Translations under genes and position numbers: made by a program
In this document: positions 9,073 through 49,389 of the stretch, in pieces
Layout: each line of letters starts with the position of its first letter
Position numbering within the stretch: position 1 is the stretch's first letter
NCBI GenBank assembly: GCA_021829835.1
Contig: JAKBPE010000006.1
Location: 1 to 63,177 of the forward strand
From: a bacterium
Lineage (GTDB): Archaea; Micrarchaeota; Micrarchaeia; Micrarchaeales; CABMGC01
Direction: 5' to 3'
Length of the DNA stretch: 63,177 bases
Notes under the pieces: generated by a model
Database searches by the model: none
Seen by the model: the letters and a program-made list of their open reading frames with translations, nothing else
What the model was told of the DNA's origin: nothing

Positions 9073-9597
9073 ATGAATGTTGCACTTGTAATAGCTCCTG
9101 CGGATTTTAGGGATGAGACTGTAGCGAAGGCAAAAGGAATGTTTGAGAGATGGAACGTTAGATGTAGCATAATGGGCTTTGTTGACAGGGAATGCAAGGG
9201 AAGCCATGGTGCAGTATATATGCCAAATGCGAATATAAACAATGCAGATCCCGGGAATTTTGATGCGGTGCTTATAGCAGATGGCACAGGCATTGAGAGA
9301 TATAGGCTCTATGAAGTGATGCCTGCCCTGGATTTTATAAGAAATATAGCAGGCAGGAATAAAATTGTTGCCGGAGTGGGCAATGCAGTCAAGTTTCTTG
9401 CAAAAGCCAATCTGGTATCTGAACGCAAGGTTGCGGTGCCTAAAGATGCGTCCGAGCTTGTGTATATGATAAAGCTTTACAGGGGCATAATCTCAGATAG
9501 CGATATGGAGTGCGATACAGATATAATGAGCCTAAAAGATTACAGAAAGACGGAAGAGTTTGTAGGTAGGATGCTTGACAGGGCAGGTGTCAGATGA
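9073..9597 (+). CDS. DJ-1/PfpI-like protein lacking the catalytic cysteine
   Basis: A 174-residue flavodoxin-like protein: MNVALVIAPADFRDETV at the start and a nucleophile-elbow region IVAGVGNAVKFLAKA near residue 100. DJ-1/PfpI members normally carry a cysteine at this elbow; here the position appears to be valine, so peptidase, glyoxalase or deglycase activity is not expected. It is isolated, between a surface protein and convergent rnp4. Family call is moderate and rests on the overall pattern. Confidence 0.6.
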   Translation: MNVALVIAPADFRDETVAKAKGMFERWNVRCSIMGFVDRECKGSHGAVYMPNANINNADPGNFDAVLIADGTGIERYRLYEVMPALDFIRNIAGRNKIVAGVGNAVKFLAKANLVSERKVAVPKDASELVYMIKLYRGIISDSDMECDTDIMSLKDYRKTEEFVGRMLDRAGVR

Positions 9598-9639: not shown

Positions 9640-9975
9640 TTATTTTGCAGATGGCTTCGTATCTTTTTTAGTTATATACTCTTTTTTCTCAGAGCCGCAA
9701 TTACATATGTAAATGATTAGCGGGCCTTTCGTTATCCTTACCCTGCAGTTTACTCCGGGTATGAGGACGGCATTGCAGGACTTGCATATTCTTGTTTTCA
9801 TCTCTTTTGGGATTTTTACCTTATAATGAGCGCTTATTTTTTTTGCCAGGTAGATATACCTTTTTGCAAGAGTTTCTGATCCTGCAGGGTCTTTTCGAGT
9901 ATCTTCCTCGGCTAGCTCGAAAAGTCTGGATATTCTCCATATTGCTACTCCTTTTATGAGCTTTTCGTCCTTCAT
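9640..9975 (-). CDS. rnp4: Ribonuclease P protein component 4 (Rpp21/Rpr2)
   Basis: A 111-residue zinc-ribbon subunit of archaeal RNase P, which matures tRNA 5' ends. Two N-terminal helices (residues 5-50) precede the zinc ribbon RICKSCNAVLIPGVNCRVR...YICNCGSEKK. The first knuckle is C-x2-C as usual. The second reads C-x-C-G instead of the family's C-x2-C-G. It is divergent from the HAD gene across an AT-rich promoter region. Confidence 0.85.
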   Translation of the reverse strand: MKDEKLIKGVAIWRISRLFELAEEDTRKDPAGSETLAKRYIYLAKKISAHYKVKIPKEMKTRICKSCNAVLIPGVNCRVRITKGPLIIYICNCGSEKKEYITKKDTKPSAK

Positions 9976-10115
9976 AAGAACCCTTTTAAATATTAAATAG
10001 TATAATTTAGTAATATTTAATTAGTGGTATTACGGAAGGGTTTGCAATTTTCGATACGCACGATACTGTAGCTAGAAATGCCAAGGATGTCTCAGCATAT
10101 GTCAGGGAATCGATA

Positions 10116-10706
10116 ATGAACATCTATGGGGTAATAGTAGATGTCGACCTTAAAAAGTATCCTGGGCTTACATCGAAACAGATAGCCAGATCAGTCTTGC
10201 TTGAAAATGGATTCAGTGATGAGGAGATTAATCCCAGGCTTGATAGATACATGGAGGATCTCCCCTATTCTTATTATAATGTAGCTTGGAGCGACAAGAT
10301 CATAGTCACTGATGGAGCCAAAGAATTGCTTGACGAGCTTACAAAGAGGAGCATATTCATAGGAATTGCTACAGGCGAAGCCCAGAGAGTAGCCAAAATG
10401 AGGCTTGGAAAGGTAAAGATAGACAATTATTTCAAGTTTGGGGCCTACGGAGAAGACGGAATGATATTCAACGAGATCCTTGCCAAGAGCATTAAGATAG
10501 CCAGGGATAACGGCTTGCAGGAAGATGAAGGAATTGTAGTTGTAGCAAATCCGGTCTCAGTAAGCATAGCAAAGATTCTTGGAATGAAGGTGGTCGCCCT
10601 TGAGACTTCAGAGGCATCAAGGAAAGAACTTGCAGCTGCCGGTGCAGATCTCATAATAAAGAATTTCAGGGAGATAGACAAGATAATCAGGGAAATTAAG
10701 AATTAG
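10116..10706 (+). CDS. HAD-superfamily protein with degenerate active site; frame extends upstream to about 10029
   Basis: 196 residues from the first canonical ATG, but the same frame is open upstream to 10014. Between 10029 and 10116 it encodes GFAIFDTHDTVARN, the HAD motif I strand (normally FDxDGT), with Asp-to-His at the general-acid position. Motif II is present (GIATGEA). Motif IV, usually GD(x)3-4D, reads VVVANPVSVS, losing both acidic residues. The fold is that of phosphoglycolate-phosphatase-like HADs, but catalysis looks lost. No ATG, GTG or TTG exists upstream in frame; an ATT at 10029 just downstream of a TATA-like region is the best candidate start. Confidence 0.75.
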   Translation: MNIYGVIVDVDLKKYPGLTSKQIARSVLLENGFSDEEINPRLDRYMEDLPYSYYNVAWSDKIIVTDGAKELLDELTKRSIFIGIATGEAQRVAKMRLGKVKIDNYFKFGAYGEDGMIFNEILAKSIKIARDNGLQEDEGIVVVANPVSVSIAKILGMKVVALETSEASRKELAAAGADLIIKNFREIDKIIREIKN

Positions 10707-46235: not shown

Positions 46236-46315
46236 AGCCCCCTCCTTTTCTGGACGAACTTCTCGTCCGCCCTGTTCATAGGTTATGTATCGCTGAAAGC
46301 GCTTTTATGGTTTTG
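46236..46315. repeat. About 78-bp repeat with hairpin, copy 1
   Basis: About 90 percent identical by eye to 52681-52757. Contains GGACGA-ACTTC-TCGTCC (46252-46268), a perfect 6-bp stem. It covers the 3' end of the gene at 46283. Confidence 0.8.
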
Positions 46316-46573
46316 CGAATGCCTACTATTTGAGCATAGTAAATTTCGCAAAGTTCTCCAGACATGTGAAAGAGATAAGCTGTAGTAAAGAATAATAACT
46401 TCTCCAACTAAGGCTAATGTAAGAAAGACTACCAAGGCAGGAGAGTTCAAAGATAGTTTTTGTTGCCCTGCGGACACTGCGGCTTGGAATATTGTAAATG
46501 CCAGTATCATAAGCGAAAATCCTATCATAATTTTGCTGCTCTTCCTAGTATCATCTCGTATTTCAGTAAGCAA
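46283..46573 (-). CDS. Small two-helix membrane protein
   Basis: A 96-residue protein with hydrophobic segments at about 15-36 and 46-68 and a short charged N-terminus (LTEIRDDTRKSSK). Its last 10-15 codons fall in the 78-bp repeat, so the natural C-terminus may differ. No family recognised. Confidence 0.5.
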   Translation of the reverse strand: MLTEIRDDTRKSSKIMIGFSLMILAFTIFQAAVSAGQQKLSLNSPALVVFLTLALVGEVIILYYSLSLSHVWRTLRNLLCSNSRHSQNHKSAFSDT

Positions 46574-46611
46574 AACATGGTAATCTCCTTTTTTGGAGTT
46601 GGATTTTGACG

Positions 46612-49389
46612 TTATATCACCTTTTTAAATCGCAGTAAAGCCAACACAATCACAACGATCAATATAATAGCAAAGATATATCCCATCAGCGGCAACCATT
46701 GTTGGTGAACTGAAATTTTTCCAGAAGTTGTTGAATTTGGCAATCCTATCGTTTCGTTAATCTTCGTACTACCAGTAACCGATACATTGGATACGCTATT
46801 ATTTTCCTGAACAAACGCTGGAATTGTCACTATCACGACATTAGATCTTCCACTTATGTTATATTCTGTATCATTCACAATTACATAATATTCGTATGTT
46901 CCTGCTGCGCCAAGTTGTAGTTTTAATATTCTGAAATTAGTTGTATTTATCAGACCGGAATTGCCATACCAATTATACAAATAAGATCCCGAACCATCGG
47001 ATACATTTGCAACTAAGACAACCGATCCTGTTTCATTCTGCGCAGTATGGTTTTGTGTTAAAGTAACGTTAAGTTGAGCCAAATTCGCATTGGTGCGGTT
47101 TGTCATTATACCGATTATCGGATCCGAAGGTATACTAAAAGCAATAGTACATGCACTTTCATTAATTGTAAATAGATTTATTGGTTTCCACGTTCCATTT
47201 TCTAATATATATGGTCTGATACCTTTAGCACTGCAGGGAAACTTTTCAATTATATTTATAATAGAACGGGTAGTGTTATGTGCTGAAACATTAAATATAG
47301 AAAGAGCCACCGTATTGTGGGGTGGGGGTGGTGTAGATAAAATGTTAGATGCCGTCACACTTCCATTTGAGTTTATAGATTTTATGTTAGAGGTGTTGAG
47401 ATTATTCAGAATTGTAAAATTAGTGGATAAAAGACTTGACGTTTCTGGAATTTGAGCATCATCGCTTACTGTTACGTTAGCAGAATAAGTACCTAACCCT
47501 AGTTTGCTACTATTTATTTCAAATCTGAACGAGGGGTTAGGGGTGGTTCTAAAAGCAGTATATACTACTTCACCATTGTTGGCAGAGATTACCCGCAGTA
47601 CATAAGTATATGGTGGAGTTCCCGGAAGTTCTTGTTTATCATTATTGCTATTACAGGTTGGAATACAAAAATTATATGTAGGTATGCTTAAATTTGCGGT
47701 TATAGTAATATTGTGCCCTAATATAATTGTATTGCTACTTACATTTACTATACGCATCTGTAAAAATGGATTTACAATTATTGACGGAGATGGACTAGAA
47801 TTTGTAACCTCCCCAGTGAACAGATACTGTACGCTTAATTTAAATTGATATACTCCAGGCAAAGCCATCGGTAAAGGAGAAAAAATGCATTTAACTTGCT
47901 CTCTCGATGTTAGTAATTGCGGTACTCCATTAATAGGAGTCACATTACTTGAACCGTTTGCGCATAGCGATGGAGCCGAAGTAAATCTTACAGAAGAATA
48001 ATTACCCCCATTATAGGAGTAGAGCCACAAAGGTTGAAAGCCGTTCGGACCCACATTTGTTAATACACTGGGGTTGATAGTATATTCAGGGACGGCGTCA
48101 ATTAACGTCGTTGATTGATATTGATCTATTAAAGTTGGGCCGTTTATTATTGGTGGCGAAGGTGCAGAAGTTTTGGCATAAACGAGTATTTGTGAGCCAA
48201 AAGAGGATATAGACTGCGATTCATTATCTGTCAGTTGAAGATAGAACGTATATACACCTATGGGTGTGGATTGATTGGTAGTGAAAGTGCAGTTAAGCGT
48301 TTCCCCTTGACTTACTTGACCATGTGGTTGTTGACATATATTGACTAACTCTCCTGGAACAGCTCCAAATGAAGGGATGCTACATGTAGATGAATTTGGG
48401 AACTGGCTTAATCCTGATAAATAGCAAGTCAACCATTTATATGTATAAGGGGGATTGCCTCCAAAAGAGCCAGGAAGTTTAATACTAAATTTTGCTGATT
48501 GACCTTGGTATAATATGGAATTGTTCGGTTCTAAATTATAAAGCGCATGCCTTAGTGGACTTGCTGTTATGTTGCCTATATTCATCCCATTAATTGCTGT
48601 TATTATAGCCGCGGATGAATTAACAACCGCATTTGGATCTAATGCGTCTATTACTTGCAACGCTATATGATACTCGCCAGGAGGTTCGGGGCCATTACCA
48701 TATAATGTGCATGATACGGTATGATTTGAGATGCCCCCTGACCCACGACCTCCTAGAATTTGTCCTGTATAACAGTCATTAAATACAGAAGCAACAACGC
48801 TAGAAACGGGCAGCGATCCAACCGGCTCTAGCGTATTTGAACCATAAGACACGAGCCATTGATAATAAAATACACCACTCCCTCCATAAGGCAGAGTATC
48901 GCTTATGATACTTGGCTGCCCTGATCTCGAGTCGACTGTCGCATTGCTTAAGGTTGGCGTATTGGGTTTTTCTATAGCAGGGTATACTACTATGCCAGGA
49001 CTGGATGAATTTGGAGTTTGGAGACTTAAAGTTTTATTAACGACTTTAAGTCCAAAGGAATAACTTCCTAGTTGGGTGGTTGTTTTTGTCAAAAAATAAC
49101 ATTGTACACTTTTGTTCTTATCAGCAGTCCCAAAGGCTGGAGAGCACAATGTATTCGCTGATAACCATCCAGTCATATTCGGATTATTATTTGGTGCGTA
49201 TCTATAAAGCCACTGATAATTGTATGACGATCCATTAGAAGGAAGTATTCCATAAATAATAACATTTGTTCCACGGTCTACTGATGATAAGGTAACTGTA
49301 ATGTTACCAGTATATGTGGCATTGGCTAGAAGGGGGCTTATTAAGATATAAAAAGAGATTATAATTACTATCAAAGTCTTGTTCTGCAT
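46612..49389 (-). CDS. Very large secreted, membrane-anchored surface protein
   Basis: A 925-residue protein with a signal peptide (1-25), dozens of N-x-S/T sequons and a C-terminal transmembrane helix (about 895-915) with a short basic tail. It has repeated Ig-like segments of the form YxYxWLxxY...C.F...G.Y.F.L.V.D, each with a paired cysteine pattern. Probably an adhesin or envelope protein brought in with the element. Confidence 0.75.
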   Translation of the reverse strand: MQNKTLIVIIISFYILISPLLANATYTGNITVTLSSVDRGTNVIIYGILPSNGSSYNYQWLYRYAPNNNPNMTGWLSANTLCSPAFGTADKNKSVQCYFLTKTTTQLGSYSFGLKVVNKTLSLQTPNSSSPGIVVYPAIEKPNTPTLSNATVDSRSGQPSIISDTLPYGGSGVFYYQWLVSYGSNTLEPVGSLPVSSVVASVFNDCYTGQILGGRGSGGISNHTVSCTLYGNGPEPPGEYHIALQVIDALDPNAVVNSSAAIITAINGMNIGNITASPLRHALYNLEPNNSILYQGQSAKFSIKLPGSFGGNPPYTYKWLTCYLSGLSQFPNSSTCSIPSFGAVPGELVNICQQPHGQVSQGETLNCTFTTNQSTPIGVYTFYLQLTDNESQSISSFGSQILVYAKTSAPSPPIINGPTLIDQYQSTTLIDAVPEYTINPSVLTNVGPNGFQPLWLYSYNGGNYSSVRFTSAPSLCANGSSNVTPINGVPQLLTSREQVKCIFSPLPMALPGVYQFKLSVQYLFTGEVTNSSPSPSIIVNPFLQMRIVNVSSNTIILGHNITITANLSIPTYNFCIPTCNSNNDKQELPGTPPYTYVLRVISANNGEVVYTAFRTTPNPSFRFEINSSKLGLGTYSANVTVSDDAQIPETSSLLSTNFTILNNLNTSNIKSINSNGSVTASNILSTPPPPHNTVALSIFNVSAHNTTRSIINIIEKFPCSAKGIRPYILENGTWKPINLFTINESACTIAFSIPSDPIIGIMTNRTNANLAQLNVTLTQNHTAQNETGSVVLVANVSDGSGSYLYNWYGNSGLINTTNFRILKLQLGAAGTYEYYVIVNDTEYNISGRSNVVIVTIPAFVQENNSVSNVSVTGSTKINETIGLPNSTTSGKISVHQQWLPLMGYIFAIILIVVIVLALLRFKKVI

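Follow-up and report, generated by a model that had tools for sequence, protein, structure and literature searches.

A probable ACG start codon in a family-wide HAD-fold pseudoenzyme gene of Micrarchaeota, with candidate near-cognate starts elsewhere in the order

Introduction

Where does translation begin in an archaeal gene whose reading frame offers no ATG, GTG or TTG codon ahead of its first conserved motif? The question is raised by a HAD-type gene on contig JAKBPE010000006.1 of a Micrarchaeota genome (assembly GCA_021829835.1, here G000; 992,079 bases in 38 contigs), the window analysed here being the whole stretch of 63,177 nucleotides from position 1 of this contig. An earlier note on this DNA had suggested that the gene starts at a non-canonical codon, probably ATT at 10029, and that its product has kept the HAD fold while losing its catalytic acids.

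Archaeal gene finders and annotation assume ATG, GTG or TTG, and in review passages AUG, GUG and UUG alone are named as archaeal starts (PMC7531240). About 5% of the unannotated sORFs of Methanosarcina mazei are reported to start with CTG (PMC11456600), and a reconstruction covering 36 bacterial and archaeal genome groups is reported to have found a shift to CUG or AUU in only 3 of 61,358 ancestral AUG starts, a count limited by its use of annotated starts (PMC5622118). In bacteria, non-AUG starts are described for infC (AUU/AUC) and Streptomyces sigR (GTC), which are intact genes under selection and often misannotated (PMC5472188).

The reading frame and its surroundings

The HAD gene of the window (locus L001) lies in a frame spanning 10014-10706, with the stop codons TAG 10008 and TAA 10011 immediately upstream and TAG 10704-10706 as terminator. 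Up to motif I the codons read TAT TTA ATT AGT GGT ATT ACG GAA GGG TTT GCA ATT TTC GAT ACG CAC GAT. When the whole frame was re-read, its first ATG, GTG or TTG was found to be ATG 10116, and the absence of a canonical codon before motif I was thus as the earlier note had described, as were the sequences of motif I and of the degenerate motif IV. The features discussed below are as follows.

10032..10706, + strand: gene for the HAD-fold pseudoenzyme, with 224 codons counted from ACG and a TAG stop (Pfam HAD_2, AlphaFold2, 2hcf)
10032..10034, + strand: proposed start codon ACG, at the homologue start column and the same in three species
10023..10028, + strand: Shine-Dalgarno-like AGTGGT, the AGTG of which begins at -9 of ACG, the modal position of GGTG in the genome
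10029..10031, + strand: ATT, the start codon according to the earlier note; CTT in L003
10024..10026, + strand: out-of-frame GTG, taken as part of the Shine-Dalgarno-like element and not as a start
9985..9990, + strand: TTTAAA, which lies at -47 of ACG and could be the TATA core if the mRNA is leadered
10001..10009, + strand: TATAATTTA, possible alternative TATA at -31 of ACG and -28 of ATT, which may serve the divergent gene instead
10050..10067, + strand: HAD motif I, FDTHDT, with His in place of the second Asp
10116..10118, + strand: ATG, internal rather than the start although no canonical codon precedes it in frame
10542..10559, + strand: motif IV position, VANPVS, without both acids
9640..9975, - strand: divergent neighbour, RNase P subunit of the Rpr2/Rpp21 type (Pfam PF04032, E = 7.2e-17; synteny)
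9073..9597, + strand: neighbour of the DJ-1/PfpI family (Pfam PF01965, E = 8.9e-12; synteny)

The HAD gene and the divergent Rpr2-type gene share an intergenic region of 56 bp. The neighbourhood of Rpr2-type, DJ-1/PfpI and HAD genes is retained across several genera; that the HAD protein works together with RNase P is a guess.

A HAD-fold pseudoenzyme

The product matches Pfam HAD_2 above the cut-off (E = 1.8e-9), and its AlphaFold2 model, computed with 37 sequences, has a mean pLDDT of 96.5, so that the structural prediction proposed in the earlier note gave a confident HAD fold with a Rossmann-like core and a cap. The known structure compared here is 2hcf, a HAD-like hydrolase from Chlorobium tepidum, which matches with a Foldseek TM score of 0.90, a Z-score of 28.5, an r.m.s.d. 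of 1.9 over 220 residues and a profile E of 4.2e-26; as with HADs of the PGP/β-PGM type, the folds are alike along the whole length. Whereas 2hcf retains FDID and GDTEHD, in the Micrarchaeota family motif I has lost its second Asp and motif IV its two acids. The DxD of motif I is replaced by DTH in the window gene, and its second Asp is missing in 35 of the 37 family members; the acidic pair of motif IV is replaced by Ala and Ser, and across the family Asp is found at neither position (0/37) and Glu at the second position in one member (1/37). The Thr/Ser of motif II is present, as Thr in the window gene and as T in 31 and S in six of the 37 members. The kept fold and degraded acids therefore stand as the earlier note had them, but the loss of the acids is family-wide in the 37 members and not special to this gene. 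Judged by its predicted fold and by these residues, the gene product is a conserved, family-wide HAD pseudoenzyme, and it is likely to act as a binding or scaffold protein.

Coding sequence ahead of ATG 10116

If the gene were translated from its first canonical codon, residues 2-28 counted from ACG would be noncoding. Between L001 and L003 (genome G003), codons 2-28 contain 14 synonymous and three nonsynonymous codon differences (dN = 0.067, with dS saturated), and between L001 and L002 (from genome G002; this locus is the same as JAJZKQ010000023.1) dN is 0.033 and dS is 0.54; both genomes represent congeneric species. These values indicate that the residues ahead of ATG 10116 are evolving under purifying selection. 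In the AlphaFold2 model strand β-1 comprises residues 4-7, upstream of ATG 10116, and belongs to the Rossmann core. At the position of ATG 10116 the relatives read ESI(R/M)NIYG, with Arg in most of them.

These observations bear on a pseudogene reading, in which the gene is decaying and has lost its ATG, and on its variant, in which a truncated protein is expressed from ATG 10116 only. The absence of a canonical start and the loss of catalytic residues would be expected on either account. However, the frame is intact in three species, the low dN against a high or saturated dS is not that of a decaying sequence, a truncated protein would lose β-1 from its core, and most relatives have Arg where the window has ATG 10116. 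We regard both versions of this reading as very improbable. The earlier note placed the start of translation at a non-canonical codon ahead of ATG 10116, and this is supported by the selection on codons 2-28 and by the homologue start column described below.

The homologue start column

Matches to the HAD protein were found in three of six genomes of the genus, 29 of 60 relatives and 44 of 79 genomes of the family, G000 being counted each time; a search of viral contigs found no HAD homologue. A homologous frame was recovered at E = 1e-10 in 52 of 55 loci, giving 42 distinct sequences. Under a start-calling rule that favoured canonical codons, their starts were ATG in 35, ACG in four, TTG in two and GTG in one. 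In 38 of the 42 a canonical start lies at the column of ACG 10032 or at most three codons away, the remaining four being those with ACG, and in no homologue was a start observed where the window has ATG 10116. Near relatives carry ATG in this very column, with N-termini such as MEKFALFD, MEAFALFE, MAKFAIFD and MNRFALFD.

The four ACG homologues, the only ones known, are L001, L002 and L003 from one genus and L008 (genome G011) from another, and in all four the column is six codons ahead of the Phe of motif I. No canonical codon precedes motif I in frame in L001, L003 and L008. L002 has an in-frame GTG two codons ahead of motif I, which was excluded as a start as it sits inside strand β-1. In L002 and L003 a TAA lies five codons ahead of ACG, and few alternative start codons are therefore available there. 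Few fourfold sites are identical across the three species (13 of 65), and ACG and AGTGGT are nonetheless unchanged in all three. Among the G000 frames, ACG accounts for 931 of 9956 Thr codons.

The lack of a canonical start recurs in the three species and, at this very column, in L008 from a different genus, and as judged from the alignment it is more than chance. An assembly error hiding an upstream ATG, named in the earlier note as an alternative, is unlikely, because a canonical start is likewise missing in the two other species of the genus in which the gene occurs; the same error would be needed in all three, one of them with a contig labelled cov_70.65, for 70x coverage (L002; the L003 contig is labelled cov_1.16, for 1.16x). 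In a tree from which the start columns had been left out, the ACG label needs two changes, L008 being separate from the genus clade and falling inside a clade of 13 rows with support of 100/99; a single origin of the label would be compatible with the starred branches of this tree.

Signals around the start

In a survey of 408 putative genes from 454 kb of G000, TATA-like hexamers ahead of ATG genes are most frequent at -28/-29, and a second cluster lies at about -36 to -48. The first peak matches leaderless mRNAs, and by these positions both leadered and leaderless TATA spacings are present in the genome. GGTG is concentrated near starts (34 versus 4.75 expected per 10 nt), most commonly beginning at -9. 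The 16S rRNA 3' end of G000 (L086), GAUCACCUCAA / GATCACCTCAA, fits Shine-Dalgarno elements of the GGTG type; it is unlike the usual 16S 3' end, CACCTCCT. Known archaeal initiation likewise combines Shine-Dalgarno and leaderless modes. At the HAD gene the element is AGTG at -9, one mismatch from GGTG, and near-cognate codons after AGTG at this position are weakly enriched (10/43, p = 0.014). The sequence upstream of ACG in L008 differs, with CGTG after TGAG.

These signals were weighed between ACG 10032 and ATT 10029. The earlier note favoured ATT on account of the TATA spacing, and that part of its argument stood: a TATAAT starting at 10001, 28 nt ahead of ATT, is at the modal leaderless distance and could bring the 5' end of the transcript to ATT or close to it, with this codon then initiating translation of a leaderless mRNA. 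ATT is also common to G000 and G002, and AUU is a start in Escherichia coli infC (PMC5472188). The choice of ATT as the start did not stand. The codon is CTT in L003, on a low-coverage contig, whereas ACG is the same in all three species, and TCT precedes ACG in L008; the spacing from the TATA element moves by 2 nt in L002 and L003; ATT is one codon away from the homologue start column; and the conservation of AGTGGT is left unexplained. A leaderless start at ATT is thus unlikely in our judgement. The DNA containing TATAAT doubles as promoter region for the divergent Rpr2-type gene, so the box is not assigned to either gene here. On the homologue alignment, conservation and the spacing from the Shine-Dalgarno-like AGTGG, ACG 10032 is preferred, and translation of the HAD gene probably starts there rather than at an ATG, GTG or TTG.

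A canonical codon would also be supplied if translation began out of frame at GTG 10024 and the ribosome then slipped by -1 on GGGTTTG (10038-10044) to enter the HAD frame. As read by eye, all three species have this GTG and the heptamer G GGT TTG, and in L002 the GTG frame meets a TGA after the heptamer. However, L008 lacks the heptamer yet shares the lack of a canonical start, homologues begin in frame at the ACG column, the GTG at -8 is in the Shine-Dalgarno register of the genome, and it is not evident what a slip only seven codons into the frame would serve. We hold this reading to be improbable in the extreme.

Candidate near-cognate starts elsewhere in the order

Orthologues were screened between stretches of G000 (716 kb) and G017 (706 kb), giving 338 non-shadow pairs, in which a mechanical rule flagged 19 G000 frames and 17 G017 frames as being without a canonical start. 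After the rows had been read, four were kept in G000 (the HAD gene with ACG, trxB with CTG, an MFS transporter with ATT and rnhB with ATC) and two in G017 (rnhB with ATA and a methyltransferase with CTG); the other flagged frames were dropped, as they looked like antisense shadows, fragments or distant pairs or had a canonical codon just beyond the cut. The four G000 genes among 338 pairs hint at such a start in roughly 1 of every 100 genes. In all of the kept genes apart from the HAD gene, GGTG starts exactly at -9 of the near-cognate codon.

The -9 position was then scanned in frames upstream of their first canonical codon. GGTG at -9 was followed by CTG, ATT, ATC, ATA or ACG at 12 of 26 sites, versus 2.8 expected from a background of 10.8% (p = 5.5e-6), and at 14 other spacings of GGTG there was no near-cognate enrichment and no p below 0.15. 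Four of the 12 sites are backed by homologues, three are free of canonical codons over a run of 12 codons or more, and five are ambiguous, with ATG or TTG 4 to 7 codons downstream. The enrichment is therefore clear at the level of sequence, but not every such site is a start.

The most consistent case is rnhB (G000 copy L158:9152-9853:-), for which the best 30 of 73 matching genomes (among 78) in family f1 and the best 30 of 58 (among 60) in family f2 were aligned (loci L163-L192 and L233-L262). In these 60 loci the start column holds ATA in 26, ATC in 13, ATT in nine, ATG in nine and GTT in three. No canonical codon occurs between the upstream stop and the catalytic motif in 33 of the 60, and 27 of these 33 have GGTG at -9. 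A stop codon lies immediately 5' of ATA in five loci; in about ten others an in-frame GTG three codons upstream is a possible start. Outside the order a canonical start was found in 11 of 12 loci, the exception being L273 (G158, family f11), which lacks one and has ATA with GGTG at -9. From these alignments, translation of RNase HII in the order thus appears to begin at AUA, AUC or AUU; a limited search of the open-access literature found no account of rnhB starts in Micrarchaeota.

The other cases vary between close relatives. In trxB one column holds CTG in G000 (L193), TTG in two congeners (L194, L195) and mostly ATG elsewhere, and no in-frame stops were found within the aligned part at the three loci checked. 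The MFS transporter (G000 L105:15825-17018:+; L264, L265) has ATT in G000 and G002, preceded in both by GGTG at -9, and ATG in the same column in G003. The CTG of the G017 methyltransferase (L110:2466-3080:-) aligns with an ATG in G000 and has GGTG at -9. On these comparisons the near-cognate start of rnhB is widespread and retained, while those of trxB, the MFS transporter and the methyltransferase come and go.

The same set of codons bears on whether C-to-U editing of the mRNA could convert the HAD ACG to AUG. Plant plastids do edit ACG to AUG, in rpl2, psbL and ndhD, and an ACG start has been engineered in petA of Chlamydomonas (PMC9845219); the same codon is at the start position here. Such editing cannot, however, make AUG from AUA, AUC, AUU or CUG, and we consider it highly improbable for the HAD gene.

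Proposed mechanism and its meaning

We consider it likely that the HAD gene is translated from ACG 10032 by means of the Shine-Dalgarno-like AGTGG, as one case of an order-wide habit of near-cognate starts. The mRNA would be leadered, with AGTGG positioning ACG at the spacing that the organism uses for GGTG; the initiator Met-tRNA would pair with ACG with one mismatch, and Met would be the first residue of the protein. Some other leadered genes of the order may similarly initiate at AUA, AUC, AUU, CUG or ACG, rnhB most consistently. A start of this kind would likely give low, fidelity-sensitive expression, and weak initiation may be its purpose. Only tentatively do we suggest that the order uses near-cognate starts as a standing, conserved throttle on translation set by the fidelity of initiation, including the AUH start of rnhB in two families and ACG, CUG and AUU elsewhere, in which case a counterpart of infC and sigR would have evolved without IF3.

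Archaea are not known to possess IF3. The HAD gene resembles infC and sigR in that a non-canonical start is conserved on an intact gene under selection, but those genes are bacterial and regulated by IF3, whereas the HAD gene is archaeal and has ACG. Archaeal aIF1 has been reported to destabilize complexes on non-AUG codons (PMC6237735, PMC8211752). Its loss was excluded as a cause of relaxed start selection, as 69 of 78 family genomes contain aIF1. Autoregulation of aIF1 through a weak start of its own was also set aside: unlike infC, the aIF1 gene has ATG or Met at its start in eight of ten loci, the wrong frame having been picked in the other two. ARAGORN called no Met tRNA on 30 tRNA loci and ten stretches, from which no bearing on the initiator tRNA was drawn.

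A limited search of the open-access literature found no case of an ACG or near-cognate start in archaea. From the cases above, the start-codon rules in this archaeal group look looser than the textbook ones. If Micrarchaeota do initiate at ACG, CUG and AUH at the rate hinted at above, their proteins are being truncated or missed by annotation, start-codon discrimination in these reduced cells is unlike that of model archaea, and the question why a weak start persists can be put to rnhB as a natural experiment spanning the order.

Further candidate sites

Several sites outside the cases above were also observed. An ACG site in G017 (L113) was not counted as a verified start, as an ATG lies seven codons later at the start of the homologue. 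An AbiEii-type gene of G017 (L121:18415-19158:-) has aaggtgatttcATC and is ambiguous, with TTG six codons later. A second ACG candidate in the window, at 46286-46612 on the - strand, has aaaaaggtgatataACG, with TTG 13 codons on as the next canonical codon, and its product had no match in Pfam. Finally, the gene for an ankyrin-repeat protein in G000 (L089:19151-19936:-) has gggtgatgaaATA and runs for more than 40 codons without a canonical codon.
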